Positions 20,501-57,474 of a stretch of 64,000 nucleotides of DNA are shown piece by piece. Made by a program: the position numbers and the translations under genes. The DNA is from Acidobacteriota bacterium (GTDB taxonomy: Bacteria; Acidobacteriota; Terriglobia; Terriglobales; SCQP01). Position 1 is the first letter of the stretch, and each line of letters starts with the position of its first letter. The stretch spans positions 372,001 to 436,000 of the forward strand of contig SCQP01000014.1 of NCBI GenBank assembly GCA_004299485.1. The letters are read 5' to 3'. The notes under the pieces are model-generated. The model was given only the letters and a program-made list of their open reading frames with translations, had not been told where the DNA came from and did no database searches.

Positions 20501-21594
20501 TATTGGGGAGGCGCGGGGGTAAAGCTACCGAGCACCACGGCGCGGCGGGCGCCGGTCACCGCCGGCAGGTTCGCCGGCACGCCGCGCAGATGGGCGGCGC
20601 CCAGCATCGCAAACGCCATCGCCTCGCGGAACTGGGAGGGCACACCGAACTCCTCCGAGCGGAGAAAGCGGGCCTGCGGCGCCGCCTCCTTCAGCGCGGC
20701 CATCAGCGCCCGGTTGCGCGTGCCCCCGCCTGCGGCGATCACTTCGGTGGCTTCTTGCGGCAGATGCCGGGCCACGGTATGGGCCGTTAGCGCGACCAGC
20801 GTGGCCATCAGGTCGTGCCGATTGAACCGCGGAAAGCGGCGGCGAATCCCGGCCACATATGCGGCGCCAAACTGCTCGCGGCCACAGGACTTTGGCGGCT
20901 GGCGGCGGAAATAGGGGTGCTGCAATAGTGCCTGTAGCAGCTCCGGCTGCACCCGGCCTAGCACCGCGTAATCCCCATTTTTGTCATAGGCTTGCCGTCC
21001 ATTTGATATCTGCTGCATGAAGGCATCGAGCGCCATATTCCCTGGCCCCGTGTCAAAACCCCGAATGCCCGCCGGCTCGCCGCCCGCGGGCAGGAACGTC
21101 AGGTTGGCGATGCCCCCCAGGTTCAACACCACACGCGGCCGAGTGGGGTGCGCGAACAGCTTGCCATCCGACCAGGGCACAAGCGGCGCTCCTTCCCCGC
21201 CCTGGGCAATGTCGGCCGCACGGAAGTCGCTGATCACCGCCGCGCCCGCGAGCGCCGCGACCATGGCCGCATCCCCCAACTGCAGCGTCGCCCGCCGGCC
21301 CGCGTGGAAAACGGTCTGGCCATGCGATGCAACCGCGTTCAGCGAGCTGAGGTCGCAGGCTCGCACCGCACGCCCGATCCGCCGTCCCAGCGCTCCATGC
21401 AACGCGGCAATTTCCGAGGTTGTGGCCTGGTCGCCCGCGGCCGCCAGAATCGCCTGCCGTTCGCTCCGGCTATAGGCGGCATGATGGGTCGCCTCCAGCC
21501 ACCAGCGCCAGGCAGGACTGATGCGCATCACGGCGACATCGATGCCGTCCGCCGACGTGCCCGACATCACCCCCGCGATACGGAGGGATTTCAC
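20500..21594 (-). CDS. anmK: Anhydro-N-acetylmuramic acid kinase
   Basis: A 364-residue sugar kinase of the ASKHA fold. The N-terminal phosphate loop GVMSGTSADGIDVAV is diagnostic for AnmK, and the second nucleotide loop GGGTRNRALM and GFDTGPGNMALDAF are also present. It phosphorylates and opens 1,6-anhydro-MurNAc to give MurNAc-6-phosphate in cell-wall recycling. The start is GTG and overlaps the mutS stop by four bases (GTGA), so it is translationally coupled to mutS. No other recycling gene is adjacent. Confidence 0.95.
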   Translation of the reverse strand: MKSLRIAGVMSGTSADGIDVAVMRISPAWRWWLEATHHAAYSRSERQAILAAAGDQATTSEIAALHGALGRRIGRAVRACDLSSLNAVASHGQTVFHAGRRATLQLGDAAMVAALAGAAVISDFRAADIAQGGEGAPLVPWSDGKLFAHPTRPRVVLNLGGIANLTFLPAGGEPAGIRGFDTGPGNMALDAFMQQISNGRQAYDKNGDYAVLGRVQPELLQALLQHPYFRRQPPKSCGREQFGAAYVAGIRRRFPRFNRHDLMATLVALTAHTVARHLPQEATEVIAAGGGTRNRALMAALKEAAPQARFLRSEEFGVPSQFREAMAFAMLGAAHLRGVPANLPAVTGARRAVVLGSFTPAPPQ

Positions 21595-24248
21595 GCGAGC
21601 GCGGCCTTGAGTTCGGCAATCAGATTGAGCGCTTCGAGCGGCGTCAGCGTGTCGGGGTTGACCGCCGCCAGGCGATCGGCAATCTTCTGCGCCTGCGGGG
21701 TAAACAGCGTGAGCTGCATCTCCCCCGCCGCGCCTGCCGCCGGACGCGGCGCCTCGTGCTCACGCAGTACGGCGCGGGCGCGCTCGATCACCGCGCGCGG
21801 CAGCCCGGCCAGCCGCGCGACTTCAATGCCATAGCTGCGGCTGGCCTCGCCGGCTTCGACCTTGCGCAAAAACACGATGCCATCCTTGCTCTCGCGCACC
21901 GCTACCTGGGCGTTGCGCAACCCCGGAAGCTGAGCCGCCAGCGCCGTCAACTCGTGGTAGTGGGTGGCAAACAGCGTCAAGGCGCGGGTGTGATCGTGCA
22001 GATGCTCGACCATCGCCCAGGCCAGCGCCAGCCCGTCGTAGGTCGAGGTGCCGCGGCCAATCTCATCGAGGATCACCAGCGAGCGCGTCGTCGCTTGATT
22101 CAGAATCACTGCCGCCTCGGTCATCTCCACCATGAACGTCGAGCGCCCGCGCGCCAGATTGTCGCTCGCCCCGATGCGGGTAAAAATCCGGTCCACCAGC
22201 GGAATGCGGGCGGAGGAAGCCGGCACAAAGCTGCCCATGTGCGCCATCAGCACAATCAGCGCCGCCTGCCGCAGATAGGTCGACTTGCCTCCCATATTAG
22301 GCCCGGTCACCAGCAGCAGCCGCTGGGCGTCCGGGGCGAGCGCCAGGCTATTGGGCACAAACGTCTCGGCATTCCCCTGCATGAGCCGCTCCACCACGGG
22401 ATGCCGCCCTTCGAGTATTTCCAGGATCCCCTCGGCGGTCATCTCCGGTCGGCAGTAGGTGCGCTCCTGGGCCAAATGCGCGAAGCTAGCCAGCACATCG
22501 ATCTCCGCAATCGCCGCCGCATCCTGCCGGATCGCCCCGGCATTTTCCGCCGCCTGCCGCCGCAGCCCTAGAAACAACTCCAGCTCCAGCGCTCGCGACC
22601 GCTCTTCCGCCGACAAGATCTTCCGCTCCAACTCCTTGAGCTCGGCCGTAGTGAAGCGCTCGGCATTGACCAGCGTCTGCTTGCGCTCATAATCGGGGGG
22701 TACGAGGCGCAAATTGGCTTTCGAAACTTCGATATAGTAGCCAAAAATATTGTTAAAGCGGATCTTTAAGGAACCAATCGTAGTCCGCTCCCGCTCCCGC
22801 GCTTCAATGGCGGCAATAGCGGTCTTGGCGCCATGCGCCAGCGCCCGCAGCTCGTCGAGCTCGGCGTTGATGCCGGCCCGGATATAACCCCCCTCGGCAA
22901 GCGTCGCCGGCGGAGCCTCGACCAGGTGCGCCCCAACCGCCGCCCGCAGCGCATCGCAGGCATCGAGTCTTGCCGCCAGTTCGCCCAGCCTGCCAGCACC
23001 GTCGCTCCCAGCACCCTTCCCGCCTCCCGCTGCCCCCTCGTCTCCTCTGACCCCTGGCCTCTGGCCCCTGAGCCCTTCCTTCACTTCCGGCACCCGGTCC
23101 AGCGAGGCGGCGAGCGCCAGCAGATCGCGTGGCAGGGCGGTATCGAGCGCCACCCGCGCCAGCAGCCGTTCCAGATCCTGAATCCCGCCGAGCGTTTCCC
23201 GCAGCTTTTCCCTCTGGCTCCATTCGGCTACTAGCGCGGCCACGGCTTCGTGCCGCGCCCGGATCTCCACTAGCTCCCCGCTCGGCGCCAGCATCCACTG
23301 CCGCAGCAACCGCTTGCCCATGGGCGTGCAGGTCGCATCCAGCACCGCCCGTAAAGTGGAGGCCCCGTCGCCCTGAAACTGCGGCTCGACCAGCTCGAGG
23401 TTTCTGGCGCTCACCGCATCGATCACAAGGCCCTGCTGGCGCTCATAAAACCCCAGCCGGTCGATGTGGGCGAGCGTGCTGCGCTGCGTCTCTTTCACGT
23501 AATGCACAATCGCCCCGGCCGCAGCTTGTGCCCACGGCCGCCCGCTGAGCCCGAAGCCTTCGAGCGACAACACCCCAAAGTGGCTCTCCAGCACGCCCTG
23601 CGCAAAGGCGGGTTCCAGAATCCAGGGCTCCAGCGGAGTCAGCGTCGCAGCCGCGGCAGCATCCGCAGGCGCGGCGGCAAATAGCGGCGCCTCCGGCGCC
23701 GCATAGAGAATCTCGCGCGGCCGCCAGCGCGCCTGCTCTTCCGCTACCCGGCTCGCCGCCACCGTACCGTCAAATTCGGTGGCATGGAATTCGCCGGTTG
23801 AGACATCGACTACCGCCCAGCCCACCGTGTTTCCCTCGGGCGAGCGGGCCAGTGCCGCGAGATAACGGTTGTCCGCCTCCGGCAGCGCAAACGCCACCGT
23901 GCCCGGCGTCAACACCCGTGTGACTTCCCTTCTGACCAAGGTCTTGGTCAGCTTGGGGTCTTCCATCTGCTCGCACAGCGCTACTTTATACCCCTGCTGA
24001 ACCAGCCGTGCGATATAGGTTTCCGCCGCATGCCAGGGCACCCCGCACATGGGGATGGGTGCGCCCTTTTCCTTATTGCGGCTGGTGAGCGTGATGTCGA
24101 GCACTGCCGCCGCGGTCTTGGCGTCCTCGTAGAACAACTCGTAGAAATCGCCGAGGCGAAACAGCAGCAACGCCTCGGGATGCTGCCGCTTGGCCGCCAG
24201 GTACTGCCGCATCACCGGGGTTGCCGTTTCAAGAGCCGCCGACGCCAT
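21591..24248 (-). CDS. mutS: DNA mismatch repair protein MutS
   Basis: An 885-residue MutS. The mismatch-reading motif F35-Y36-E37 lies in the N-terminal domain, and the ATPase has Walker A GPNMGGKST at 649-657, Walker B VILDEIGRGTST and the switch His in FATHYHEL. The C-terminal helix-turn-helix region is present. An unusual Gly/Arg-rich insert of about 30 residues (about 390-422) in the lever/core domain replaces a normally short loop; it is encoded by a heptamer array and adjoining low-complexity DNA. The frame is intact through it. The upstream region carries a TonB receptor leader stub with terminator. Confidence 0.95.
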   Translation of the reverse strand: MASAALETATPVMRQYLAAKRQHPEALLLFRLGDFYELFYEDAKTAAAVLDITLTSRNKEKGAPIPMCGVPWHAAETYIARLVQQGYKVALCEQMEDPKLTKTLVRREVTRVLTPGTVAFALPEADNRYLAALARSPEGNTVGWAVVDVSTGEFHATEFDGTVAASRVAEEQARWRPREILYAAPEAPLFAAAPADAAAAATLTPLEPWILEPAFAQGVLESHFGVLSLEGFGLSGRPWAQAAAGAIVHYVKETQRSTLAHIDRLGFYERQQGLVIDAVSARNLELVEPQFQGDGASTLRAVLDATCTPMGKRLLRQWMLAPSGELVEIRARHEAVAALVAEWSQREKLRETLGGIQDLERLLARVALDTALPRDLLALAASLDRVPEVKEGLRGQRPGVRGDEGAAGGGKGAGSDGAGRLGELAARLDACDALRAAVGAHLVEAPPATLAEGGYIRAGINAELDELRALAHGAKTAIAAIEARERERTTIGSLKIRFNNIFGYYIEVSKANLRLVPPDYERKQTLVNAERFTTAELKELERKILSAEERSRALELELFLGLRRQAAENAGAIRQDAAAIAEIDVLASFAHLAQERTYCRPEMTAEGILEILEGRHPVVERLMQGNAETFVPNSLALAPDAQRLLLVTGPNMGGKSTYLRQAALIVLMAHMGSFVPASSARIPLVDRIFTRIGASDNLARGRSTFMVEMTEAAVILNQATTRSLVILDEIGRGTSTYDGLALAWAMVEHLHDHTRALTLFATHYHELTALAAQLPGLRNAQVAVRESKDGIVFLRKVEAGEASRSYGIEVARLAGLPRAVIERARAVLREHEAPRPAAGAAGEMQLTLFTPQAQKIADRLAAVNPDTLTPLEALNLIAELKAALA
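23047..23074. repeat. CTGRCCC heptamer array inside mutS
   Basis: Four units CTGACCC, CTGGCCT, CTGGCCC and CTGAGCC. In frame they encode GLRGQRPGVRG of a MutS loop near residue 395. The same GC-rich unit type appears between DinB and secA at 43295-43322. Confidence 0.8.
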
Positions 24249-24297: not shown

Positions 24298-24327
24298 AAA
24301 AAAATGGCCGCGGCGGGCGCCGCAGCC
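24298..24327 (-). terminator. Terminator directly after the TonB leader stub
   Basis: On the minus strand a ten-base stem (GGCTGCGGCG paired with CGCCGCGGCC, one wobble) is followed by seven T. It lies only a few bases after the last recognisable codon of the leader stub at 24332-24376 and ahead of mutS, so transcription from the stub promoter should end here. Confidence 0.8.
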
Positions 24328-24331
24328 GTCC

Positions 24332-24376
24332 TGTCAGCAGGCGCTCAGCGCACTTGCCGAAACGACGAAGTGACAT
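24332..24376 (-). pseudogene. 5' stub of a fourth TonB receptor gene (leader and first 15 codons)
   Basis: The minus strand reads ATG then codons for MSLRRFGKCAERLLT, matching the starts of the complete receptors (MSLRCFGKHASNLLL and MLRCRFGKCATNLLI). Upstream the ribosome-binding site AGGGGAGGAG (24381-24390) and the leader motif TGGATATTCC (24391-24400) also match the 33339 gene. After about 15 codons similarity ends and a terminator begins. The rest of the 372-base gap between mutS and the first receptor holds the stub's promoter region and the terminator of the next gene; I see no other gene there. Confidence 0.82.
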
Positions 24377-24486
24377 TCAACTCCTCCCCTGGAATATCCA
24401 TGCTCCGCGCCCGGGTGCCGCGCCCTCCCACGCGTCGGGAACCGCATGGCCCGCACGCCGCCCCTCTGCACGCTCCTGCTCCACTC

Positions 24487-24542
24487 TCTCAAGGACCAAT
24501 CTGGATCACATCACCCTGAACCATCCCGAATTGCTACAATTC
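24487..24542 (-). promoter_or_regulatory. Promoter region and inverted repeat of the leader stub
   Basis: TTGAGA at 24487-24492 (minus strand) sits in TGGTCCTTGAGAGAG, which resembles TTGTACTTGACAGGGAG before the gene at 33339. A perfect inverted repeat GAATTG-CTA-CAATTC at 24528-24542 lies 35 bases further upstream, the same distance as in two of the intact receptors. The -10 region is poor, so activity is uncertain. Confidence 0.55.
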
Positions 24543-24562
24543 CTAGGCATCTACCTGCCACC

Positions 24563-24620: not shown

Positions 24621-27600
24621 CTACCAGCGCACCAACAGCCCGACCTCGACGGCGCGCGCATTGAGCTGGTTCCCGTAAATTACGCCGAAACTGCTGGGTG
24701 AGTTGATGTCGTTAAAGTTATCCGAGGAAGAAAAGTGGTTGAAGACGTTGGTGGCTTGCGCGTTCAATACCGTCGAAAAGCGCTCCGACAACGCCAGGTC
24801 CTTGGTCACCGAAAAATCTACGTCGGTTTCGCTCAAGCCAGGGAAGTTGTTGCCTTCCGCTCCCGTGGTGTCCTGACCCAGTACAATTGGCCGGAATTCG
24901 GCCTTAATGGCCGCCGGATCCGCCCAGCGGTCCATGCCCGTCCCGCCCTGCGCCGGGTTCGCCTGTCCGTAGGTGGAGTTCCGGACAATACCGCTGCCGC
25001 CGGTATAGCCCGTGGTGAGAATCGCAGCTTCCTCCGTGTACGCCCCGATACAGTTGCTCTCCCCGAAGGAACCGCATTGGGAACCGTTAATGACCTGGGA
25101 GATGCCGCCGTTCAGAGAGTAATAGTTGGCGCCGATCCGCTGCCAGGTAATGATCGGCGCAAGCGACCAGCCGTGCGCAAGATGCTGCCAGAATGTGCTC
25201 TGACTCTTGGCCCCCGGTGACCAGACAAAGTAGGCGTTGTACGCCAGCGGAGTCTGGTTTTCCTGCGGGCCGTACATGGCGTGCATATTGAACGCGTCGG
25301 TGACGGTGTATTCGCTATTGAGCTGCTCGACCTGGCCCGTACCCATGGACCTGGCCCAGGTGAAATTGGAGGCTCCAGTAAGGCCATGGAAATTCCGGAA
25401 GTTCAATGTCCAGATGAACGCATTGTAGTTGCCCCAGCCCACCGAATCGTTGTCGAAGACATCCGCGAGCTGCCCGCCCCCGCTGATGAGACCGTTGGCA
25501 GGGCAGCCCGGCTGGGAAGCCGGGTTGCAGGTCGTAGGCGCATTCATGTTCGTCCGCCCGAATGTCCAGGAGGGAGAAGACTGCAGGTCCTGCCACAAAT
25601 TGAACACCGTGTTCCCGTTGACCGGGTCAATGTTGTCGGCTGCGGCTGGCCCTTCGTTTTCGGCCACCGCCAGCGCGCAGTCACCGGCTGCGCGGCAATA
25701 GGCGGAGTTGTTGCCCCCCAAAGCGGCGGTGAAAAACGGCGATGCGGTGACGCGATCGTAGGGATTGGCGTCGTTCTGCCCTGCGCCAATCTGGTTGAAC
25801 AGCGTGGCAAACGCCTGCTGGAACTGCTGGCCGCCGGCCGTTAGCATATAGGGCACCACATCCAGATTGGTTTCCTGGTATTCGTTGCGGATGATGCGGC
25901 CGGTGTAGCCGAGCATGGTGGTCAAGCTCGGTGTGAGCTGGCGTTGGAAGGTTAGATCAAACTCATCGGACCGGTTCGGACGGAAGTAGGGATCCAGGAA
26001 ATCACCGTTCCCTGCCGAGGGGTTGGGCACGCCGTTCTGCAATTCGCCTGAGAAATATGGTTGCGGCAGCGTGGGCGTGGGTGCCTGCCCCAGCGGCGCC
26101 GTCATGCCGTTGTAGCCATCGGCTGCGGGCCCGATGCGGAAGGCATCGGTCGGATCCACGCCGCTGGAGCCCAGGCACTGTCCGCTCCCCGAGGCGCCGA
26201 TGCATTCCACCGGCTGTCCCAGTCCGGTCCCGAGCAAGGGCACCAGCACCAGATCCACGCCGTTGAGACGCCCGTAGATGCGCGACCAGCCGCCGCGCAG
26301 CACGGCCTTGTTCCCGCCAAAAATCGCTCCCAGAAAACCGCCTTGGATATTGGGATTCCACGCCAGCGCCAAGCGGGGCGAAAAACCGGCGTAGAAAGGA
26401 TGGTAGGGGTATTTCAGCCCGCCGCCTACGTTGCCGACCGTAGCCCAGCCAATCTTGGGGTTGTAGATCTGGCCGCCCAGCGCCGCACGTTCTTGCGAGG
26501 CCAGATAGTTGTTGACATCGAGCGGGCTCCCAGCAGCATCCACCAGTGCTACCTGCTTGCCATGATCCTCCCTGGGGGGTAACTCGACGGTGTAGCCGGC
26601 GCCGAAATCCACCGTCAGGCTTGGCCGCACGTGCCAGGCGTCGGAAAAATAAACGTTGTACATAGGGATATAGCTGTTGTCGAACATAGGCGTGCCCAGC
26701 GGCTGCAGTCCCAGGTTCGCGCCCGAACGGGTGTACAGCGTCTGTGGCTGACTTACCATGCCCAGCGTCTCCGCATAGTACTGGTTGAAGGTCCCCTTGT
26801 CGGCGCCGGCGCCGAAGTCTGTGGGGAGATAATCGAAGCGGATGCCTGGACCGTTGGTGACCTGATAGACGGTGTTGGCCATGATACCGCCGCCGTTGTC
26901 ATTGCGCTGGTGGTAGTCCCACTGATCCGTAAACCGCCCGCCGAACTGGAACAGATGGTTGCCATGCAGGATGCTGACGTCGTCCTTGAACGTGTTTCCG
27001 ACTCCGTCCCACACGCGCGTGCGCACGGCCTGCGTATCCACGTTGTAGGGAATCAGCGCGTTGGAGCTTTCGCCGCCGACTTCGAGCGCGCCCCCTAAAG
27101 CCGGAAAGCCGCTGAGCGGCGTGGGTTTCAGATACGAGCCGGCCCACTGCCAGAAATTGCGCAAGTACGAATAGTTGAACGTATTCGTCACATTCGAGCT
27201 TATGTTGGTAGTGAATTGCGCCGTCCACATCGAAGGCAGTTGCGGGCGCTGGCTGCTCGTCGCGGGCACGCCAAAGGTATCGCCGGGGATGCCGCCGCCG
27301 ATATCGTGCTGCGCGTTGGGATCCAGCCGGACGAGACTGAAAAAGTGGTAGGTCAGCGTAAAGTGGGTTTTTGCGCCAAAGTCGTGATCGATGCGGGTCA
27401 CGAAGAAATTGGTATTCTGGGCGGCCGGAATATTACCCGTGAAGCCTTGCGTGTTGAAGTGGTCACCCGCATGGCTGTTGTTGGCCGTGGGCATGTACTG
27501 CTTCCACAACTGCGCGACTACCGGGTTAATCCCCAGCTTCTCAGGATCGCAGGGAACGGCGCCCGCGCCATTCGCCGTGCAGCTCGCCGGTGCATAGGCG

Positions 27601-28775
27601 ACATTGTTGACGGTGACCGTATTCGGGTTCAGGTTGTAGAAGCCGACCGAGTGCGACGCGTCGGCACAGTCGGCAGCTCCCGCAGCCCCCGCACTGCCGC
27701 ATACAGCTTCCGTGTTGCCGCTGCCGTTGTCGGCCGCAATGACCCCGGCCCGCAGCGTGGCTGTGGGCGTGTTACGCGTGAAGGTCGGTGACTGGGGATA
27801 GCGCAGGCCCTCAAATAAACCGTACAAGTAGGTCTTTCCACCCAGCCAGTCCGGTAACAGTCGGCCGCCCAGCGAGACCCCGAAACGATTCCGGTGTTTT
27901 TTGGCCCGCGGAATCCCCGCCTGGTTGTTGCCCCAATCGTTGGCGCTCAAATAACTGCCAAGATAATAATCGTAGGCGGCGCCATGCACCGCGTCTGTAC
28001 CGCGCTTGGTCACCATGGCGACGGTCGAGCCGGCAGCGCTATTGACATCGGCGGTCTGGTTTTGGGTGGTGATGGTGAACGTCTCCACACTTTCCGCCGG
28101 GGTCGGAATAGTACCGGAGGTGTAGCCGCTGGACGATGCGGAGGTGTACGTATACGCGGTATGAAAGCCGTCCATGTCGTCGGTATTATTACCGCCATCG
28201 AGCGTGAAGCTGTTTTGATCGCCGGCGGCACCGCCGACGCCCCCTTCCTGGTTGATTTCCGGCTGCAGGTTGGTGAGCGCATTGGCGTCGCGGTTGAGGC
28301 TGGGCAGTCGCACGATGGCTTGGCCCGACAGGGAGCTGGCGACGGTGGAGTTGAGCGTCTGCAACTCCGCGCCCGTGGCCGTCACCTCCACGGTTTGCGT
28401 AGTCGAACCTACCTGCATGGTGATATTGAGCAGCCGGTTCTTGCCCACGCTGACGAGCTGGTCGGTCACCGTGGCGCTTTTGAAACCGGCTTTCTTGACG
28501 GCTAGCGTGTAGGTGCCGGGCTGCAAGTTGGAAAAACTATAGCGGCCGGCGCCGTTGGTGACCGTGGGAGTCACGCCATTGGTGGCGACGTTGGTTAGCG
28601 TGGCTACCGCCCCCACAATGGCCTTGCCTTGGGCGTCTACCACCTGGCCAGTTACGGAACCACTGGTGGCGTTTTGGGCTGGCAGCCCTAGCGGTGAAAA
28701 GCAACACATGCCGGCGATGGCGCCAGCCACGAGCAACAGGTTCGAAGCGTGTTTACCGAAACAACGAAGTGACAT
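24621..28775 (-). CDS. TonB-dependent receptor, Oar-like, copy 1
   Basis: A 1384-residue outer-membrane receptor. Signal peptide about 1-33 (ending LPAQ), carboxypeptidase-regulatory domain about 35-120 (GSVTGQVVDAQGKAIVGAV, YSFSNLQPGTYTLAVKKAGF), plug about 125-260 (SFTLDGGNNTDDMDG, AGSTVAMVTKRGTD) and a long beta-barrel ending VEVGLLVRW. Such receptors import bulky nutrients using TonB energy; the ligand is unknown, and no SusD-like partner is encoded nearby. ATG at 28775 follows a GGGGAGG ribosome-binding site. A receptor 3' relic and a terminator-like hairpin lie in its upstream region, so its leader is about 150 bases longer than its paralogues'. Confidence 0.92.
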   Translation of the reverse strand: MSLRCFGKHASNLLLVAGAIAGMCCFSPLGLPAQNATSGSVTGQVVDAQGKAIVGAVATLTNVATNGVTPTVTNGAGRYSFSNLQPGTYTLAVKKAGFKSATVTDQLVSVGKNRLLNITMQVGSTTQTVEVTATGAELQTLNSTVASSLSGQAIVRLPSLNRDANALTNLQPEINQEGGVGGAAGDQNSFTLDGGNNTDDMDGFHTAYTYTSASSSGYTSGTIPTPAESVETFTITTQNQTADVNSAAGSTVAMVTKRGTDAVHGAAYDYYLGSYLSANDWGNNQAGIPRAKKHRNRFGVSLGGRLLPDWLGGKTYLYGLFEGLRYPQSPTFTRNTPTATLRAGVIAADNGSGNTEAVCGSAGAAGAADCADASHSVGFYNLNPNTVTVNNVAYAPASCTANGAGAVPCDPEKLGINPVVAQLWKQYMPTANNSHAGDHFNTQGFTGNIPAAQNTNFFVTRIDHDFGAKTHFTLTYHFFSLVRLDPNAQHDIGGGIPGDTFGVPATSSQRPQLPSMWTAQFTTNISSNVTNTFNYSYLRNFWQWAGSYLKPTPLSGFPALGGALEVGGESSNALIPYNVDTQAVRTRVWDGVGNTFKDDVSILHGNHLFQFGGRFTDQWDYHQRNDNGGGIMANTVYQVTNGPGIRFDYLPTDFGAGADKGTFNQYYAETLGMVSQPQTLYTRSGANLGLQPLGTPMFDNSYIPMYNVYFSDAWHVRPSLTVDFGAGYTVELPPREDHGKQVALVDAAGSPLDVNNYLASQERAALGGQIYNPKIGWATVGNVGGGLKYPYHPFYAGFSPRLALAWNPNIQGGFLGAIFGGNKAVLRGGWSRIYGRLNGVDLVLVPLLGTGLGQPVECIGASGSGQCLGSSGVDPTDAFRIGPAADGYNGMTAPLGQAPTPTLPQPYFSGELQNGVPNPSAGNGDFLDPYFRPNRSDEFDLTFQRQLTPSLTTMLGYTGRIIRNEYQETNLDVVPYMLTAGGQQFQQAFATLFNQIGAGQNDANPYDRVTASPFFTAALGGNNSAYCRAAGDCALAVAENEGPAAADNIDPVNGNTVFNLWQDLQSSPSWTFGRTNMNAPTTCNPASQPGCPANGLISGGGQLADVFDNDSVGWGNYNAFIWTLNFRNFHGLTGASNFTWARSMGTGQVEQLNSEYTVTDAFNMHAMYGPQENQTPLAYNAYFVWSPGAKSQSTFWQHLAHGWSLAPIITWQRIGANYYSLNGGISQVINGSQCGSFGESNCIGAYTEEAAILTTGYTGGSGIVRNSTYGQANPAQGGTGMDRWADPAAIKAEFRPIVLGQDTTGAEGNNFPGLSETDVDFSVTKDLALSERFSTVLNAQATNVFNHFSSSDNFNDINSPSSFGVIYGNQLNARAVEVGLLVRW

Positions 28776-28858: not shown

Positions 28859-28945
28859 CTACCACCGGAGAAGTAACCCCACCTCGACGGTGCGTGGAGC
28901 GAGGCGGTTTCCGGTGATCTCTCCAAAACTCGTCGGCCGATCGAT
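28859..28945 (-). pseudogene. 3' relic of a TonB receptor gene
   Basis: Minus-strand reading gives PTSFGEITGNRLAPRTVEVG followed by LLLRW and stop, aligning with the final residues of all three intact receptors (for example PSSFGVIYGNQLNARAVEVG, LLVRW). Nothing upstream of about 28945 aligns convincingly. The 403-base gap between copies 1 and 2 thus contains this relic, a hairpin, a promoter region and the terminator of copy 2; no other gene is seen. Confidence 0.82.
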
Positions 28946-29040
28946 GCGTCCGATCGCCTTTGCACTCTCCTTACCCTGAGTCCTCGTGCCAAGCTACTAG
29001 AGCCCCAAACGCGAGTTAGATACTATTGAAATGAGTCTCA

Positions 29041-29105
29041 TGTCAAGCACAAAATATAAGTCTCCTCATTGTGATCGCGTCAAACTGCTAGTCTCGCTAG
29101 TATTT
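29041..29105 (-). promoter_or_regulatory. Promoter and upstream inverted repeat before copy 1 and its relic
   Basis: TTGTGCTTGACA (TTGACA at 29041-29046, minus strand) is followed by TATCTA about 18 bases on. At 29083-29105 an imperfect inverted repeat AACTGCTAG-N5-CTAGTATTT (seven of nine pairs) lies 36 bases upstream of the -35. The arrangement matches that before copy 2. The start of copy 1 is 266 bases away rather than about 100, the extra length being the relic. Confidence 0.65.
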
Positions 29106-29178: not shown

Positions 29179-32100
29179 CTACCAGCGGACCAGCAGTCCC
29201 ACCTCCACCGTGCGCGGGCTGAGAGAGTTGTTGTAGATATAACCGAAGTCCGACGGCGCCGTGATGTTGTTGTAGTACTCCAGCGCCGAAAAGTGATTGA
29301 ACACGTTGGTCGCCTGGGCGTTCAGCTCGGTCGAGAAACGTTCCGAGAGCGCCAGATCCTTGGTCACCGCAAAATCCACATTGGTCTTGCTCAGACCAGG
29401 GAAGAAACTGCCGTTGCCGGTGGTATCGAGCCCGAGCACCAGCGGCCGGAAGGTCGCCAGTACCGCTGCCGGATCCGCCCAGCGGTTCAGGCCGGTGCCG
29501 TGGGCTTTCGGATTGCTGCGACCGTAAGTTGAGTTGCGCACCATGCCCGAGCCGCCGGTGTAGCCGGTAGTGATGACCGCGTTTTCGATGGTCGAGCCGG
29601 TGGAGCAGTCTATCTCGCCGAACGAGCTGCACTGCCCGCCGTTGCCCACCGAATCCATGGCGTAACCGTTGGCGTTTGCCGCCGCCTGCCGCGTCCATGT
29701 GATGATCGGGGCGAACGACCAGCCGTGCACCAAGTGCTGCCATATTGTGCTCTGGTCTTTCGCCCCCGGCGACCAGACGAAGTAAGCGTTGTACTGTACC
29801 GGCGCCGAGTTGAACTGCGGCCCATACATGAACTTCAGGTCGAACGGATTGGTCACTGAGTATTCGCTCGACGCCTGCACCGTCTGGCCGGTGCCCATGG
29901 ATTTCGACCAGGTCAGGTTCGACCCGCCGGTGATGCCATGGAAGTTGCGGAAGTTCACGCTCCAGAACAGGGAATTGAAATTCCCCCAGCCAATGGAGTC
30001 GTTCATGTAGATGGCCGACAATTGGCCGCCGCCGCTGATGACGCCGCTCGCCGGGCAACCCGGCTGCACGCCGACCTGGCAAGTCGTAGGGGCGCTGGCC
30101 GTGGTCCGGCCCAGCGTCCAGGCGGGGTTGGACTGCAGTTTCGCCCACAGGCCATACACATCGTTGCCAAACGTGGGGTCAATGTAGTCTCCGCCGCTGG
30201 GGCCCGCCATTTCGGCCACCGCCAGAGCGCAATTGTTCTGCGCCGGGGCGCAGAACGCCGAGCTATTGCCCCCCATCGCCGCCGAGAAAAACGGTGATTG
30301 CGTGACCTTGCTTAGCTTCGTGGGGTCGGCCGCGATCTGCTCAAACAATTGGGCGAAGGCTTTCTGGAACTGCTCGCCCCCGGCGGTCATCATGTAGGGC
30401 ACGGCGTTGGGCGTCAGCTCCTGGAACTCATTGCGGATGATGCGGCCGGTGTAACCGATCATGGTGGTCAGGTTCGCCGTAAGCTGGCGCTGGAAGGTCA
30501 GATCAAATTCATCCGAACGGTTGGGCTTGAAGTTGGGATCGAGCGAGGAACCGGAACCGGCCGAAGGGTTGGCCACGCCGTTTTGCAACTCGCCCGGGAA
30601 GTAGGGTTGGGGCAGCGTCTGTGTGGGCGCATGCCCGAGCGGCGCGCTCATGCCGTCGTCGCCGTTCGCGGTGGGCCCGATGCGGAAGGCATCAGTGGGA
30701 TTCGCACCGCGGCTCCCCAGGCAGGCACCCGTACTCGTAGCGCCCAGGCAGCTCACCGGCTGGCCGAGGCCGGTCCCCAGCAGGGGCACCAACACCAGAT
30801 CCACGCCGTTGAGGCGGCCATAGATGCGCGACCAACCCCCGCGCAGTACCGACTTGTTGCCCCCAAACATCCAGCCCAGGACTCCACCCGAAACGTTCGG
30901 GTTCCAGGCCAGAGAGATGCGTGGCGAAAAGCCGCCATAAAAGGGATGGTAGGGGTACTTCAGGCCGCTGCCGACGTTGCCGACGGTGGCAAAGCCCAGC
31001 TCGGGATTGAACGTCTGCCCGGCGAGCGCCGCCTTTTCCGTCTGCGCCAGGTAGTTGGTGGTCACCACCGGGTTATCGGCGCCATCCACCAGCACCACCT
31101 GCTTGCCCTGCGCCTCATACGGCGGCATCTCGATGGTGTAGCCGGCGCCGTACGTGAAGGTCAGCGAGGGCTTGATATGCCAGGCGTCGGAAAAGTACAT
31201 GTTGTACATCGGAATCGAGCTCTTGTCGAACATGGGCGTGCCCAGCGGCTGCAGCGCCAAATCCTTGCCCGCTCGGGTATAGAGCGTCTGCGGCTGGCTC
31301 ACCATGCCCAGCACTTCGGCGTAAGTCTGATCAAAGGTGCCCTTGTCCGCTCCCGAGTTGGCCCCGGTCTGGAAGTCCGCGGGCAGGTAGTTGAAGCTGA
31401 TGCCGTTACCGTTGGTGACCTGATAGACGTTGTTGGCCATAATGCCACCGCCATTGTCATTGCGCTGGTGGTAGTCGATCTGGTGGGTGTAGCGCCCGCC
31501 AAACTGGAACAAGTGGTTGCCGTGCAGAATGGTGACATCATCCTTGAAGGTGTTCCCGATCCCGTCCCAGACGCGCGTGCGCACACGCTGCGTATTGACG
31601 TTATAGGGAATGAGAGCGTTGGAGCTTTCGCCGCCAATCTCCAGCGCACCGCCCAGCGCTCCAAAGCCGCTCAGCGGCGTTGGCTGAAGATACGAACCCG
31701 CCCACTGCCAGAAGTTGCGCAAATACGAGTAGTTGAAGGTGTTGGTGATGTTCGAGTTCACGTTGGTAGTGATTTGCGCCGTCCACATGGAGGGCAACTG
31801 CGGGCGCGTCGTGGGCGAGACGGGCACGCCGAAGCTGTCGCCGGGTATGCCGCCGCCGATATCGTGCTGGGCGAACTGATCGACCCTCGAGAAGCTGTAG
31901 AAGTGGTAGGTCAGCGTGAAGTGGGTTTTCTGCCCGAGGTCGTGATCAATGCGGGTCACGAAAAAATTGCTTGACTGTGGCGTATTGATGTTGGCGGTGA
32001 ATCCCTGGGTGTTGAAGCCGTCGCCGCCGTTGGGATTGTTGGGGTTAGGCATGTACTGCTTCCAGAGCTGTGCCACCACCGGGTTCAATCCCAGCCCGCG

Positions 32101-33339
32101 CGGATCACAGGCGACCGCAGGCAGCGGGTTGGCGCTGGTGGAGGCGGGGTTCGCACACTGCGCCACCGGATAGGTGATGCCGCCGACCTGCGTGGAGTGG
32201 TTGTTGAGGTTGTAGTAGGTGACGGTGCGCGAGGAATCCGCGCAGCCGCCGGCAGCATCGGAACCCTGGCCGCAAATGGGTTCGGTCGCTTCGTTGCCGC
32301 TGGTCGCCGCCACTACGCCCGCGCGCAGCGTCGCCGTCGGCGTGTCCCACGTGTTGCTCGGCGCTTGCGGATAGCGCAGCCCTTCGTAGTTACCGAAAAG
32401 GTAGGTTTTGCCGCCCAGCCAGTCGGGCAGAATCCGCCCGCCCAGCGCCGCTCCGAAACGGTTGCGGTGGCTCTTGGCGCGCGGGGTGTGGCTGCGATTG
32501 CTTCTCCAGCCGTTCGCGCTCAGGTAGGACCCCAGATAGTAGTCGTACGCCGAGCCATGGATGGAATCGGTCCCGCGCTTGGTGACCATAGTCACCGATG
32601 AGCCGGCCGCGGAGTTCACATCCGCAGACTGATTGGAAACGCTGACCGTGAATTCAGTGACGCTTTCCGCGGGCGTCGGGATGACACCCGACGTCTGGCC
32701 GCCGGTCGCAGCAATGTAGATGCCCGCGCCGCCACCCATATCGTTGGTATTGTTGCCGCCATCCACCGTGAAGCTGTTCTGGTCGGCGTCCGCACCGCCC
32801 ACGCCGCCGTCCGGATTGGTGTTGGGCTGCAGCATCGTCAGTGAGTTGGCGTCGCGGTTGAGGTTGGGCAGATCGACAATCGCCGCTCCGGACAGGGAGT
32901 TGCCCACGGTGGCGTTCATGGTCTGCAGCTCAGCCCCCGAGGCCGTCACCTCTACGGTCTGGTTCGCCTCGCCCACCTGCATCGACACGTTCAGCGTCAG
33001 CGGCCGCCCCACAATCACAGCCTGATTCTTGACGCTGGCGGTTTTGAATCCCGCCTTCTTCACCATCAGCGTGTAGGTGCCCGGCTCCAGGTTGCCGAAG
33101 GTATACCGGCCCACGCTATTGCTGACCGCGGGCGTCACCCCGTTGCTGGCCTGATTGGTCAGCGTGATGACGGCTCCCACAATCGCCTTCCCTTGAGCGT
33201 CCGTGACCTGGCCGGCCACGGTGCCGCTCGATGAATTCTGCGCGAGGGCGAGGTTGGGTGCAAAGCAGCTCAGCCCAACGATCGCCGTTGCGACGATGAG
33301 CAGATTGGTGGCGCACTTCCCGAAGCGACAACGCAACAT
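29179..33339 (-). CDS. TonB-dependent receptor, Oar-like, copy 2
   Basis: A 1386-residue receptor with the same order as copy 1: signal peptide (ending ALAQ), carboxypeptidase-regulatory domain (GTVAGQVTDAQGKAIVGAV), plug (SFTVDGGNNTNDMGG, AGSSVTMVTKRGTD) and barrel ending RTVEVGLLVRW. The start is ATG at 33339, which follows an AGGGGGAA ribosome-binding site; an in-frame extension to 33399 would precede that site and is not used. Copies 2 and 3 are closer to each other than to copy 1 in the plug and barrel. The ligand is unknown; differences lie mainly in barrel loops. Confidence 0.93.
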   Translation of the reverse strand: MLRCRFGKCATNLLIVATAIVGLSCFAPNLALAQNSSSGTVAGQVTDAQGKAIVGAVITLTNQASNGVTPAVSNSVGRYTFGNLEPGTYTLMVKKAGFKTASVKNQAVIVGRPLTLNVSMQVGEANQTVEVTASGAELQTMNATVGNSLSGAAIVDLPNLNRDANSLTMLQPNTNPDGGVGGADADQNSFTVDGGNNTNDMGGGAGIYIAATGGQTSGVIPTPAESVTEFTVSVSNQSADVNSAAGSSVTMVTKRGTDSIHGSAYDYYLGSYLSANGWRSNRSHTPRAKSHRNRFGAALGGRILPDWLGGKTYLFGNYEGLRYPQAPSNTWDTPTATLRAGVVAATSGNEATEPICGQGSDAAGGCADSSRTVTYYNLNNHSTQVGGITYPVAQCANPASTSANPLPAVACDPRGLGLNPVVAQLWKQYMPNPNNPNGGDGFNTQGFTANINTPQSSNFFVTRIDHDLGQKTHFTLTYHFYSFSRVDQFAQHDIGGGIPGDSFGVPVSPTTRPQLPSMWTAQITTNVNSNITNTFNYSYLRNFWQWAGSYLQPTPLSGFGALGGALEIGGESSNALIPYNVNTQRVRTRVWDGIGNTFKDDVTILHGNHLFQFGGRYTHQIDYHQRNDNGGGIMANNVYQVTNGNGISFNYLPADFQTGANSGADKGTFDQTYAEVLGMVSQPQTLYTRAGKDLALQPLGTPMFDKSSIPMYNMYFSDAWHIKPSLTFTYGAGYTIEMPPYEAQGKQVVLVDGADNPVVTTNYLAQTEKAALAGQTFNPELGFATVGNVGSGLKYPYHPFYGGFSPRISLAWNPNVSGGVLGWMFGGNKSVLRGGWSRIYGRLNGVDLVLVPLLGTGLGQPVSCLGATSTGACLGSRGANPTDAFRIGPTANGDDGMSAPLGHAPTQTLPQPYFPGELQNGVANPSAGSGSSLDPNFKPNRSDEFDLTFQRQLTANLTTMIGYTGRIIRNEFQELTPNAVPYMMTAGGEQFQKAFAQLFEQIAADPTKLSKVTQSPFFSAAMGGNSSAFCAPAQNNCALAVAEMAGPSGGDYIDPTFGNDVYGLWAKLQSNPAWTLGRTTASAPTTCQVGVQPGCPASGVISGGGQLSAIYMNDSIGWGNFNSLFWSVNFRNFHGITGGSNLTWSKSMGTGQTVQASSEYSVTNPFDLKFMYGPQFNSAPVQYNAYFVWSPGAKDQSTIWQHLVHGWSFAPIITWTRQAAANANGYAMDSVGNGGQCSSFGEIDCSTGSTIENAVITTGYTGGSGMVRNSTYGRSNPKAHGTGLNRWADPAAVLATFRPLVLGLDTTGNGSFFPGLSKTNVDFAVTKDLALSERFSTELNAQATNVFNHFSALEYYNNITAPSDFGYIYNNSLSPRTVEVGLLVRW

Positions 33340-33454: not shown

Positions 33455-33520
33455 TGTCAAGTACAAATCGAGAATCTGTCATATGCGATTTACAACATTG
33501 CTAGCGTGACTAGCAATGTT
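33455..33520 (-). promoter_or_regulatory. Promoter and operator-like inverted repeat before copy 2
   Basis: TTGTACTTGACA (TTGACA at 33455-33460, minus strand) lies 116 bases before the ATG. A perfect 11-base inverted repeat AACATTGCTAG-N5-CTAGCAATGTT occupies 33494-33520, 33 bases upstream of the -35. Its position suits binding of an activator, or of a repressor acting from upstream. The TTGCTA half-site recurs in the leader stub's repeat, and TGCTAG in the one before copy 1. Confidence 0.72.
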
Positions 33521-33587: not shown

Positions 33588-36500
33588 CTACCAGCGAACC
33601 AGCAGGCCGACTTCGACTTGGCGGGCACCCAGCAGGTTACCGCCGATCACGCCGAAGTTGGCCGGGTCGGAAATGTTATTGCCGTTTTCCGACGCCGAGA
33701 AGTGATTAAACAGGTTGGTCGCCTGAGCGTTGATCTCGGTCGAGAACCGCTCCGACAAAGCCAGGTTTTTGGTCACCGAGAAGTCCACGTTGGTCATGCT
33801 CACGCCCGGGAAGAAAGCGCTGTTCCCGTTCGTGTCCAAGCCCAGCACCAGCGGCCGGAACTCGGCGCGGATGGCCGACGGATCGGCGAAGCGGTTCATA
33901 CCCGTTCCGCCGCTCCCCGGATCGCTGTTGCCGTAGGTGGAGTTCCGCACGATGCCCGAGCCGCCGGTGTAGCCGGTGGTCAGCACCGCGTTCTCAATGG
34001 TGTTGCCCGTCGAGCAGTCCATCTCGCCGAACGAGCTGCACTGCCCGCCATTGCTCACGCTGTCAGCGCCGCCGAAGAAGCTGTTGCTGCCGACGCGCCG
34101 CCAGGTGATGATGGGCGCAAACGACCAGCCGTTGACCAGATGCTCGAGGAAGCTCGACTGCGTCTTGCCGCCCGGCGTCCACACAAAGTAGGCGTTGTAC
34201 TGCAGCGGCGTCGAGTCAAATTGCGGCCCGTACATGTACTTCAGGTCAAACGGATTGGTCACGGAGTATTCGCTCGTGGCCTGATCCACTTGGCCTGTGC
34301 CCATCGACCGCGCCCAGGTCAGGTTCGACCCGCCTGTAATGCCGTGGAAGTTGCGGAAGTTCACGCTCCAGAACATGGAGTTGAAATTCCCCCAACCGAT
34401 GGAGTCGTTCATGTAGATGGCCGACAATTGGCCGCCGCCACTGATGCGGCCGCTCGCCGGGCAACCCGGCTGCGTAGCCGCGCAGGTAGTTGTGGCGCTG
34501 GCAGTGGTGCGGCCCAGCGTCCAGGCGGAATTGTTCTGCAGCTTCTGCCACAGACCGTAAACGTCATTGCCGTTTACCGGATCGATGTAGCCATTGGCGT
34601 TCGGCCCGGCCAGTTGGGCCACCGCCAGCGCGCAATCGCCCGCTTTGCCGCAGAAGGTCGAGTTGTTGCCGCCGAGCGCCGCCGTAAAGAACGGCGAGGA
34701 CGTAACATGGCTCAGCCCCTTGGGATCCGCCGCGATTTGCTGGAACAGCGTCGCAAACGCGGTCTGGAACTGCTCGCCGCCTGCGGTCATCATGTAGGGC
34801 ACCGCCGCCAGATCCACCGCCTGATACTCGTCGCGGATGATGCGGCCGGTGTAACCGATCATGGTGCTCAGGCTCGCGGTGAGCTGGCGCTGATAGGTGA
34901 GGTCGAACTCGTCGGAACGGTTCGGCTTGAACTTCGGATCCAGCACTTCGCCCGAACCGGCCGAGGCGTTGGCCACGCCGTTCTGGAGTTCACCGGGGAA
35001 ATAGGGTTGCGGCAGCGTCTGCGTCGGCGGATTGCCGAGCGGCGCACTCATGCCATCGGTGCCAATGCGGAAGGCATTGGTCGGGTTCACACCCGCCACG
35101 CCGGTGCAACCGCCGGTCATGGAGGCGCCGATGCAGCTAACCGGCTGACCCAGGCCCGTGCCCAGTAGCGGCACCAGCACCAGATCGACACCGTTCAACC
35201 GGCCGTAGATACGACTCCAGCCACCGCGGATAACGCCCTTGTTGCCGCCAAACAGCCAGCCCAGCGGGCCGCTGCTGATGTTCGGGTTCCAGGCCAACGA
35301 AACGCGCGGCGAGAAGCCGCCGTAGAACGGCTTGTAGGGGTACTTCAAGCCGCTGCCCACGTTCTGCACCGTGGCAAAGCCGAGCTGCGGGTTGTAGGTC
35401 TGCCCGCTCAGCGCCGCTTTTTCGGTCTGGGCGAGGTAGTCGGTCGTGGTCACCAGATTGTCGGCGCCATCGACCAATTCCACCTGCTTGCCGTGCTCCT
35501 CCAGCGGCGGCATTTCGACGGTGTAGCCGGCGCCGTAGCTCAGCGTCAGGCTGGGCTTGATGTGCCAGGCATCGGCGAAGTAAGCGTTGTACATCGGAAT
35601 CGAGCTCTTGTCGAACATGGGCGTGCCCAGGGGCTGCAGGTCCAGGTTCTTGCCCGCGCGCGTGTATAGCGTTTGCGGCTGGCTGACGATGCCCAGCACT
35701 TCGTCGTAGTAGGTGTCGTAGGTGCTCTTGTCGGCGCTGGAGCTGAAGTCGGTCGGCAGGTAGTTATAGTTCACGCCGTTACCCTTGGTGATCTGGTAAA
35801 CGTTGTTCGCCATAATGCCGCCGCCGTTGTCATTGCGCTGGTGGAAGTCGATCTGGTGGGTGTAGCGGCCGCCGAACTGGAACAGGTGGTTGCCGTGCAG
35901 CACGGTCACGTCGTCCTTGAAGGTGTTGCCGATACCGTCCCAGATGCGGGTGCGCACGCGCTGCGTGTTCACGTTGTAGGGAATCAGGGCATTGTTGCTC
36001 TCGCCGCCGATTTCCAGCGCGCCGCCCAGCGTGCCCAGGCCGCCGCCGAGAGGCGTCGGTTTGAGGTAGCTGCCGGCCCACTGCCAGAAGTTCCGCAGGT
36101 AAGAGTAGTTGAAGTTGTTGGTGACGTTGGAGCTGATGTTGCTGGTGATTTCCGCCGTCCACATGGAGGGCTTCTGCGGCCGCACGCTGGTGATGGTGGG
36201 CACGCCCTTGACGTCGCCCGGAATGCCGCCGCCGATGTCCGCTTGGCCGTTCGGGTACAGTCGCGTGAAAGCGTACCAGTGATAAGTCAGCTCGAAGTGG
36301 TTCTTCGCGCCAAAATCGTGATCAACGCGGGTGACGAAGAAGTTAGACGACTGCGCTTCATTCGCGCTCGCGGTGTAGTTCAGAGTGTTGTGCCGGTCGC
36401 CCCCGACGGTGCTGTTGGGCATGGGCTCATACTGATTCCACAACTGCGCCACCACGGCATTCATGCCCAGGCTGCGCGGATCGCAGGGAACCGAACCGGC

Positions 36501-37661
36501 GCCGCTGGCGGTGCAGGTAGCGGGCGCATAGGCCGTGCCGTTTACCGTCACGGAGTTGGGATTCAGGTTGTAGGCTTCCCATTTACCGGTGTAGCCCGTA
36601 GCAGTAGAGTCGGTCACGGCCAGCGCCTGCACCACGCCTGCGCGTAGCAGCGCGGTGGGCACCGCCCGGCTGAATACCGCCGAGTTGGGATACCGCAGGC
36701 CTTCGTAGTTGCCGAACAAATAGGTCTTGCCGCCCAGCCAGTCGGGCAGGATTTCCCCGCCCAGCGCCGCGCCAAAACGGTTGCGATGGCTGATGCCGCG
36801 GGCCACGTTCGACTGGTTGTTGCCCCAGGCATTGGCGGATAGCTTGCTGCCGAGGTAGTAGTCGTACACCGAGCCATGCACCGCATTGGTGCCGCGCTTG
36901 GTGACCATGGAAACCGAGGAGCCGGCGGCGCTGTTCACGTCAGCCGACTGATTGGAGGTGGCGACGGTAAACTGCTCGACCGATTCCGTCGGCGTCGGGA
37001 TGACGCCCGAGGTCATGCCGCCGGTGGCGTTGGTATAGTCGGCGTTGTTGCCGTCCATGTCGTTCGAGTTGTTGCCGCCGTCAATCGAAAAGCTGTTCTG
37101 GTCCGAGTCCGCTCCGCCCACGCCGCCATCCGGATTGGTGTTGGGCTGCAGCATGGTAAGCGAATTGGCGTCCCGGTTCAGCGCGGGTAACGCCGCAATG
37201 GTGGCGCCGCTGATGGAGTTGCCCACCGTGGCGTTCATGGTCTGCAGTTCGGCGCCGGAGGCCGTGACCTCCACCGTCTGTGTCGCCGCGCCGACTTGCA
37301 TGGGAATGTTAATAGTAAGCGGCTTACCCACGATCACGGTCTGATCTTTCACCGCCGCGGACTTGAAGCCCGTCTTTTTCACCGCCAGCGAGTAGGTGCC
37401 CGCGCCCAGGTTGGTGAAGCTGTAGCGGCCGGCGCTGTTGGTGATGGTGGGCGTGACGCCGTTGGTGGCTTGGTTGGTCAATGTGACCACCGCGCTCACA
37501 ATGGCTTTGCCTTGCGCATCGGTAACCTGTCCGGTCACCGTGCCCGAGGCTGAGTTCTGGGCCATGAGCATGGGCGTAAACCCGCTCAGGCCGATAAGCA
37601 CCAGTAGAGCCATCAACAGGTGCTCCACACGCTTGCTGCATTTACTGCGAAGTTGCGGCAT
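33588..37661 (-). CDS. TonB-dependent receptor, Oar-like, copy 3
   Basis: A 1357-residue receptor with signal peptide (ending LMAQ), carboxypeptidase-regulatory domain (GTVTGQVTDAQGKAIVSAV), plug (SFSIDGGNNSNDMDG, AGSSVSMVTKRGTN) and barrel ending RQVEVGLLVRW. ATG at 37661 is chosen because GGGGAGG lies just before it; an in-frame TTG at 37676 would put that site inside the gene. It is the first gene of the array in transcription order, and its terminator separates it from copy 2, so the receptors are separately transcribed. Ligand unknown. Confidence 0.93.
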   Translation of the reverse strand: MPQLRSKCSKRVEHLLMALLVLIGLSGFTPMLMAQNSASGTVTGQVTDAQGKAIVSAVVTLTNQATNGVTPTITNSAGRYSFTNLGAGTYSLAVKKTGFKSAAVKDQTVIVGKPLTINIPMQVGAATQTVEVTASGAELQTMNATVGNSISGATIAALPALNRDANSLTMLQPNTNPDGGVGGADSDQNSFSIDGGNNSNDMDGNNADYTNATGGMTSGVIPTPTESVEQFTVATSNQSADVNSAAGSSVSMVTKRGTNAVHGSVYDYYLGSKLSANAWGNNQSNVARGISHRNRFGAALGGEILPDWLGGKTYLFGNYEGLRYPNSAVFSRAVPTALLRAGVVQALAVTDSTATGYTGKWEAYNLNPNSVTVNGTAYAPATCTASGAGSVPCDPRSLGMNAVVAQLWNQYEPMPNSTVGGDRHNTLNYTASANEAQSSNFFVTRVDHDFGAKNHFELTYHWYAFTRLYPNGQADIGGGIPGDVKGVPTITSVRPQKPSMWTAEITSNISSNVTNNFNYSYLRNFWQWAGSYLKPTPLGGGLGTLGGALEIGGESNNALIPYNVNTQRVRTRIWDGIGNTFKDDVTVLHGNHLFQFGGRYTHQIDFHQRNDNGGGIMANNVYQITKGNGVNYNYLPTDFSSSADKSTYDTYYDEVLGIVSQPQTLYTRAGKNLDLQPLGTPMFDKSSIPMYNAYFADAWHIKPSLTLSYGAGYTVEMPPLEEHGKQVELVDGADNLVTTTDYLAQTEKAALSGQTYNPQLGFATVQNVGSGLKYPYKPFYGGFSPRVSLAWNPNISSGPLGWLFGGNKGVIRGGWSRIYGRLNGVDLVLVPLLGTGLGQPVSCIGASMTGGCTGVAGVNPTNAFRIGTDGMSAPLGNPPTQTLPQPYFPGELQNGVANASAGSGEVLDPKFKPNRSDEFDLTYQRQLTASLSTMIGYTGRIIRDEYQAVDLAAVPYMMTAGGEQFQTAFATLFQQIAADPKGLSHVTSSPFFTAALGGNNSTFCGKAGDCALAVAQLAGPNANGYIDPVNGNDVYGLWQKLQNNSAWTLGRTTASATTTCAATQPGCPASGRISGGGQLSAIYMNDSIGWGNFNSMFWSVNFRNFHGITGGSNLTWARSMGTGQVDQATSEYSVTNPFDLKYMYGPQFDSTPLQYNAYFVWTPGGKTQSSFLEHLVNGWSFAPIITWRRVGSNSFFGGADSVSNGGQCSSFGEMDCSTGNTIENAVLTTGYTGGSGIVRNSTYGNSDPGSGGTGMNRFADPSAIRAEFRPLVLGLDTNGNSAFFPGVSMTNVDFSVTKNLALSERFSTEINAQATNLFNHFSASENGNNISDPANFGVIGGNLLGARQVEVGLLVRW

Positions 37662-56408: not shown

Positions 56409-57474
56409 CGCGAGTTTTGAGGTCCAATCCGATTCCCGGACGCGACAGGTCCGGCCAGAGCGCGCCCTGGCGTGGCTGGGACGCGCCATCGAACAGCATG
56501 CTCTCAATCCGGGCGTGGTCGTGGAAGTACTCGATATTGCGCACCCGCTCCAATGCACAACAGGGATGCAAGTGGGCCGAGGGCGCGGTGTGCGCCGAAA
56601 GGGGGGTTTGATACGCCGCGCACTGGCTGTCGACCCGGGCAAATTCGCTTGGACCGGCGCAGCGGGTGATATCGGCCTGCTGCACGTGCACCGCCTCGGC
56701 AGCCAGCATGTGCTGGAAATAGGCGAGCTCGTAGCCGTACTCGCCCGCCGCAATTTCCATGCCCGCCGGAACGCGATCTCGCAGCCAGTGCAGCCCCTCC
56801 AGATCGTCGCTCGACACCGGCTCTTCAAACCACGTCACGCCTTCGGCGGCAAACTGTTCGGCAAACCGCCGTGCCTGCTGGCGCGAATAGGCGCCATTGG
56901 CATCAACGTACAGCGCGATGTCGGGCCCAATTGCCGCCCGCGCCGCTCGCACCCGTTCGAAGTCGTGCACCGGCTCGCGGCCGACCTTCATCTTGACCGC
57001 GGCAATTCCCTGCTCGGCCCAGCCCCCAAGCTGTTCCTGCAGCTCGGCGATGCTGTAAGAGGTAAACCCTCCGCTGCCGTAAATCGGCACGTGATCGCGC
57101 ACCAGGCCCAGCAATTTGGCCAAAGGCAAATTGAGCAGCTTGGCTTTCAGGTCCCACAGCGCAAGGTCAACCGCCGCCATCGCCATCGAGCAAATCCCTG
57201 GCCGCCCCAAATTGCGGATTGCCCGCCGCATCGCCTCCCAGCAGCCCGGAATATCCATTGCATCGCGGCCTTCAATCTCGGCCGCCAGTTTTCCATGCAC
57301 AACCGCCGCCACTGCGGGCGAGCCGTAGGTATAGCCCAGCCCCACACTGCGATCGGCATGCACCTCCGCCAGCACCACTTCGGTGGCGTCCCACGCCATG
57401 GTGCCATCCGACTCCGGCCGCTCCGTCGGAATGCTGAACAGTTCCACCGTTGGCCGCCGCAGGCGTGCATGCAT
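56386..57474 (-). CDS. Mandelate racemase/enolase-superfamily sugar acid dehydratase
   Basis: A 362-residue enolase-superfamily enzyme. Base K161-M-K163 (AAVKMKVG), metal ligands D191 (LYVDANGAY), E217 (WFEEP) and E245 (AAGEYG), and a His-rich segment at 295-303 (PLSAHTAPSAHLH) place it in the mandelate racemase branch, which includes dehydratases for gluconate, galactonate and rhamnonate. It heads the four-gene minus-strand cluster ending with the GMC dehydrogenase. An aldonate made by that dehydrogenase would be a sensible substrate; this is inference. Confidence 0.88.
   Translation of the reverse strand: MHARLRRPTVELFSIPTERPESDGTMAWDATEVVLAEVHADRSVGLGYTYGSPAVAAVVHGKLAAEIEGRDAMDIPGCWEAMRRAIRNLGRPGICSMAMAAVDLALWDLKAKLLNLPLAKLLGLVRDHVPIYGSGGFTSYSIAELQEQLGGWAEQGIAAVKMKVGREPVHDFERVRAARAAIGPDIALYVDANGAYSRQQARRFAEQFAAEGVTWFEEPVSSDDLEGLHWLRDRVPAGMEIAAGEYGYELAYFQHMLAAEAVHVQQADITRCAGPSEFARVDSQCAAYQTPLSAHTAPSAHLHPCCALERVRNIEYFHDHARIESMLFDGASQPRQGALWPDLSRPGIGLDLKTRDARRYAA

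Follow-up and report, generated by a model that had tools for sequence, protein, structure and literature searches.

A short element on the minus strand, just upstream of mutS, begins like a large outer-membrane receptor gene, continues for 15 codons and then runs directly into a transcription terminator. This arrangement raises the question of whether the stub is a small functional transcription unit, as the sequence-only reading of this DNA suggested when it proposed an RNA decoy for factors that bind receptor leaders, or the residue of a deletion. Here, we compare both ends of the stub with its paralogues and with related genomes, and find that it is very probably the deletion scar of a receptor gene in a tandem array.

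The locus and its stub

The window, meaning the whole 64,000-nt stretch of DNA analysed (G000:C14:372001-436000, from a genome of 3.3 Mb that is 98.8% complete), carries three large receptors, A, B and C, in tandem on the minus strand, with metG on one side and mutS on the other (Table 1). Receptors A and B are 69-70% identical to receptor C, and the stub lies on the same strand, between the stop codon of C and the start of mutS. A contig scan with mutS, our synteny anchor, as query returned only mutS loci, all at 59% identity or less. Every stub part listed by the sequence-only reading is present: TTGAGA, an inverted repeat, TGGATATTCC, GGGGAGG, an ATG, and a stem followed by seven T. The stem, of nine or ten pairs, occupies 24327-24306 and the T-run 24304-24298. 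The reading frame that begins at the ATG has no stop before the terminator; it stays open from 24376 to 24212, spanning the terminator and passing the mutS start. If transcribed, the predicted stub RNA would be about 150 nt long, with a start codon and a strong Shine-Dalgarno sequence and no stop codon.

Table 1. Features of the receptor array, the stub and their control sites (window coordinates unless another contig is given).
Feature	Position	Strand	Remarks
metG	37918	plus	
Receptor A	33591..37661	minus	CarboxypepD_reg + OMP_b-brl_4 barrel
Receptor B control region	33455..33520	minus	perfect inverted repeat AACATTGCTAG-tcacg-CTAGCAATGTT + TTGACA
Receptor B	29182..33339	minus	CarboxypepD_reg + OMP_b-brl_4 barrel
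Promoter module in B-C gap	29041..29100	minus	CTAGCGAGACTAG-N41-TTGACA, in front of remnant; TTGACA at 29046
Receptor C-terminal remnant	28862..28966	minus	about 35 codons, ending RTVEVGLLLRW-stop; E 4.4e-4 and E 8.7e-10
Receptor C	24624..28775	minus	CarboxypepD_reg + OMP_b-brl_4 barrel
Stub, changed copy of control site	24534..24546	minus	CTAGGAATTGTAG; family form CTAG-N5-CTAG; 41 nt before -35
Stub, inverted repeat	24542-24528	minus	GAATTG-TAG-CAATTC
Stub, -35-like box	24487..24492	minus	TTGAGA; no recognisable -10
Stub leader	24377..24486	minus	with TGGATATTCC and Shine-Dalgarno
TGGATATTCC	24400-24391	minus	inside stub leader
Shine-Dalgarno	24389-24383	minus	GGGGAGG, inside stub leader
Stub, 15 receptor-like codons	24332..24376	minus	MSLRRFGKCAERLLT, ATG 24376; compare B MLRCRFGKCATNLLI, C MSLRCFGKHASNLLL
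Stub terminator	24298..24327	minus	GGCTGCGGCGCCCGCCGCGGCC-A-TTTTTTT; homologue after G003 receptor
mutS	21594..24248	minus	start 24248; conserved neighbour
Control site of G001 orthologue (L157)	G001:C127:836-891		

Homology of the two ends

The proposal that the 15 codons are homologous to the receptors is borne out, far above chance. A profile built from just two sequences, the opening 45 coding bases of B and of C, gives the stub 32.2 bits at 24376, against 11.9 bits for the next-best site on both strands of the window with B and C excluded. A sequence model, R1, spans the leader end and the 15 codons and was trained on A, B, C, the stub and the single receptor of G003, a genome of the same genus. 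Below E = 0.02 it finds in its own genome only A, B, C and the stub, all of them training sequences; it also matches the G003 receptor, likewise a training sequence, and the next match has E = 0.026. Because both the profile and the model single it out, the stub is, by these comparisons, the real 5′ end of a CarboxypepD_reg/OMP_b-brl_4 receptor. Its homology to the intact paralogues is confined to this one end, as in a gene remnant. Counted by codon position, the differences between stub and C number 6, 4 and 3, with no third-position excess, and those between stub and B number 3, 5 and 8, all of these being small numbers.

The leader proved to be shared only in part. The stub leader aligns clearly with the receptor leaders in its last ~30 nt, and the element common to the receptor leaders is the Shine-Dalgarno sequence only; GGGGAGG with an ATG 3-9 nt downstream is found ahead of A, C and the stub and nowhere else. 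TGGATATTCC is indeed common to the stub and B, but receptor C has TAGACGTCC, and TGGATATTCC is lacking in A and in G003. A third exact copy of TGGATATTCC is found at 57248-57257 of the window.

The other end of the stub finds its counterpart in G003, where the gene order is metG, one receptor, terminator and mutS, with the stub absent. The G003 receptor is 59-62% identical to A, B and C; its terminator begins 25 nt past the receptor stop, and mutS lies 97 nt after that stop. The stub and G003 terminators align through the stem, the T-run and a trailing ATGCC, with hairpin energies of -20.1 and -25.8 kcal/mol, respectively, and the right flank of the stub has its homologue in the sequence 3′ of an intact receptor at the same locus, as a remnant's would. 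A terminator scan by itself was not above chance (11 found, 13.3 expected), and the functional look ascribed to this hairpin therefore gains its weight from the G003 homologue, because of which we take the terminator as real. Receptors A, B and C end in another stem, TGGGCCGyAryGyTT...; since the G003 homologue matches and the A-C stems differ, the stub terminator is, on this evidence, the old terminator of the mutS-side receptor position. Among the other genus and family members examined, none has a receptor of the A-C group directly upstream of mutS.

Given the 25-nt spacing between stop and stem in G003, the segment lost between codon 15 and the terminator would be a receptor body plus about 25 nt. 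The break does fall at the foot of the stem, as the sequence-only reading emphasized, but its precision is less surprising because in G003 no more than 25 nt separate the receptor stop from the stem. Deletions that kept the terminator may, moreover, have been favoured, since the terminator would insulate mutS. The motif ACGGC, present both around codon 18 of B and in the 3′ flank in G003, is a possible deletion microhomology.

A second scar between receptors B and C

The stub is not the only broken gene in the array. In order, the gap between B and C contains a promoter module, a C-terminal receptor remnant without its N-terminal part, and the leader end of receptor C. Receptor C lacks its own CTAG/TTGACA module and is probably driven by the relict promoter, through a leader that contains the remnant. 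With this second scar, receptor bodies have been lost at least twice in the array. We also considered, and rejected, that C interrupted a single gene whose halves are the remnant and the stub, because the C-terminal piece comes first, followed by C and then by the N-terminal piece.

The control site and its state in the stub

Upstream of the TTGACA box in this receptor group, at a distance of 38-41 nt, lies a CTAG-N5-CTAG element that is probably the operator of a regulator. It is perfect in B, where it is embedded in a perfect 11-bp inverted repeat, in the B/C relict and in the G001 orthologue; the copies in G003 (CTAC..CTAG) and in the stub (CTAG..GTAG) are variants, and that of A is divergent. 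Across five genus genomes, CTAG-N5-CTAG-N34..46-TTGAC occurs only three times, each time in front of these receptors. The inverted repeat that had been noted in the stub's promoter region is there, but it is part of a changed copy of this putative operator, which is the true shared element. Conserved across the genus in this receptor group, CTAG-N5-CTAG offers a lead to the group's regulator and is more useful in this respect than the stub itself. The extended form GCTAG-N5-CTAGC was considered as the mark of a wider regulon and discarded, its other genus matches lying only in G000:C20 and G003:C2, neither of which adjoins these receptors. CTAG as such is rare in the window, with 29 occurrences found and 78-214 expected under three simple models.

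The claim that the stub retained all of its control parts does not hold. Its -35 box reads TTGAGA, one mismatch from the TTGACA of A, B, the B/C relict and G003 (G001 has TTGACT); its best -10 matches at 2/6 positions, as compared with 3-4/6 in the paralogues; and one half-site of its control site is changed, with the 11-bp perfect arms of B lost. G+C content is higher in the stub both in the leader (0.71 vs 0.58 in A and B) and upstream (0.47 vs 0.32-0.41 in the paralogues). We read the promoter changes and the raised G+C as modest signs of decay in a single genome, short of proof. The stub is not fully scrambled, since it retains the Shine-Dalgarno sequence, the start codon and one half of the control site, CTAG; the same appearance would be expected of a young scar.

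Origin of the stub

The deletion scar, which the sequence-only reading had offered as its plainer option, is well supported by a terminator that is homologous to and syntenic with that of G003 and by the second scar in the array. We propose that the ancestral locus consisted of metG, a receptor, a terminator and mutS, as it still does in G003, and that it grew into a tandem array of receptors. A deletion would then have removed almost the entire coding region of the receptor adjacent to mutS, beginning at about codon 16 and ending shortly before the terminator, so that the upstream region, leader, Shine-Dalgarno sequence and first 15 codons came to adjoin the old terminator directly. That terminator may still shield mutS from transcription of the array, while the rest of the stub, its promoter presumably no longer active, is most likely drifting. 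Two steps could have run otherwise: the single receptor of G003 could be a reduced array and not the ancestral state, and the stub could be a partial duplication of a 5′ end and not the loss of a complete fourth gene. As a deletion scar, the stub documents that large outer-membrane receptors were gained and lost repeatedly in this array, and that the terminator beside mutS outlived its own receptor gene.

There is a slim chance that the deletion instead created a small transcription unit. Its RNA, a copy of the receptor leader, would then titrate a leader-binding factor, or its stop-less frame would override the terminator and tie mutS expression to receptor induction. If it is transcribed, the stub would be a regulatory RNA born by one deletion. 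That the stub is transcribed along with the receptors, and that its ~150-nt RNA, ending at the terminator, acts as a decoy by titrating a leader-binding sRNA or protein, is very unlikely. The leader end, Shine-Dalgarno sequence and terminator are kept, the genome encodes Hfq, and control of an outer-membrane porin by a decoy mRNA has precedent in chb and ChiX (PMC4098024), but the -35 box is eroded, no -10 is visible, and the leader fold is unremarkable (z -0.91). TGGATATTCC, which the stub shares with B only, is not a site common to all target leaders, and no homologous stub turned up in G001-G004, so that conservation beyond one genome was not seen. A start codon and Shine-Dalgarno sequence without a stop would trap ribosomes, and since the frame closes only at 24212, inside mutS, the message would be a poor decoy design, although ribosome load on a non-stop RNA is compatible with a decoy. 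Rfam gave no match to the stub RNA. Further stubs, which the sequence-only reading had thought worth looking for, were absent from the five genus genomes by model search; a search with the stub DNA in 60 relatives gave no match outside its own genome, with no stub in G001-G004 or in 55 further relatives, a result expected at such divergence and not decisive alone. The decoy proposal thus gains no positive support.

Similarly improbable is an accidental attenuator or extra promoter for mutS, in which a translating ribosome blocks the hairpin and lets transcription continue into mutS. The frame does remain open across the entire terminator and beyond the start of mutS, all on one strand, but the mechanism depends on the stub promoter being active, and that promoter looks weak; a conserved antiterminator or leader-peptide signature was not seen, and the arrangement is absent in G003. 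Less likely still is a decoy at the DNA level, with the CTAG..GTAG site titrating the array's regulator without any RNA: the site keeps, to within one base, the position that it has in B and the B/C relict, but one half-site is changed, the flanking arms no longer match, and a single weak site would titrate little. A CsrA decoy is rejected, CsrA having no match in the 98.8%-complete genome.

Comparison with known systems

In E. coli and Salmonella, chb mRNA is a decoy for the sRNA ChiX (PMC4098024). The stub resembles this system in that a leader-like RNA would act on outer-membrane protein expression, and differs from it in having no known sRNA partner, pairing site or transcript. Leader-peptide attenuators share with the stub a short open frame ahead of a terminator and a downstream gene. 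Unlike them, the stub's frame runs through the terminator with no stop before or in it, no alternative antiterminator hairpin is seen beside its ordinary fold, and the frame originates from a receptor N-terminus. The closest likeness is to truncated pseudogenes in tandem paralogue arrays, with which the stub shares 5′ homology, a missing body, a retained terminator and a second remnant nearby. It departs from the usual truncated pseudogene in that its breakpoint falls at the foot of the terminator stem, giving a scar that resembles a complete small transcription unit.
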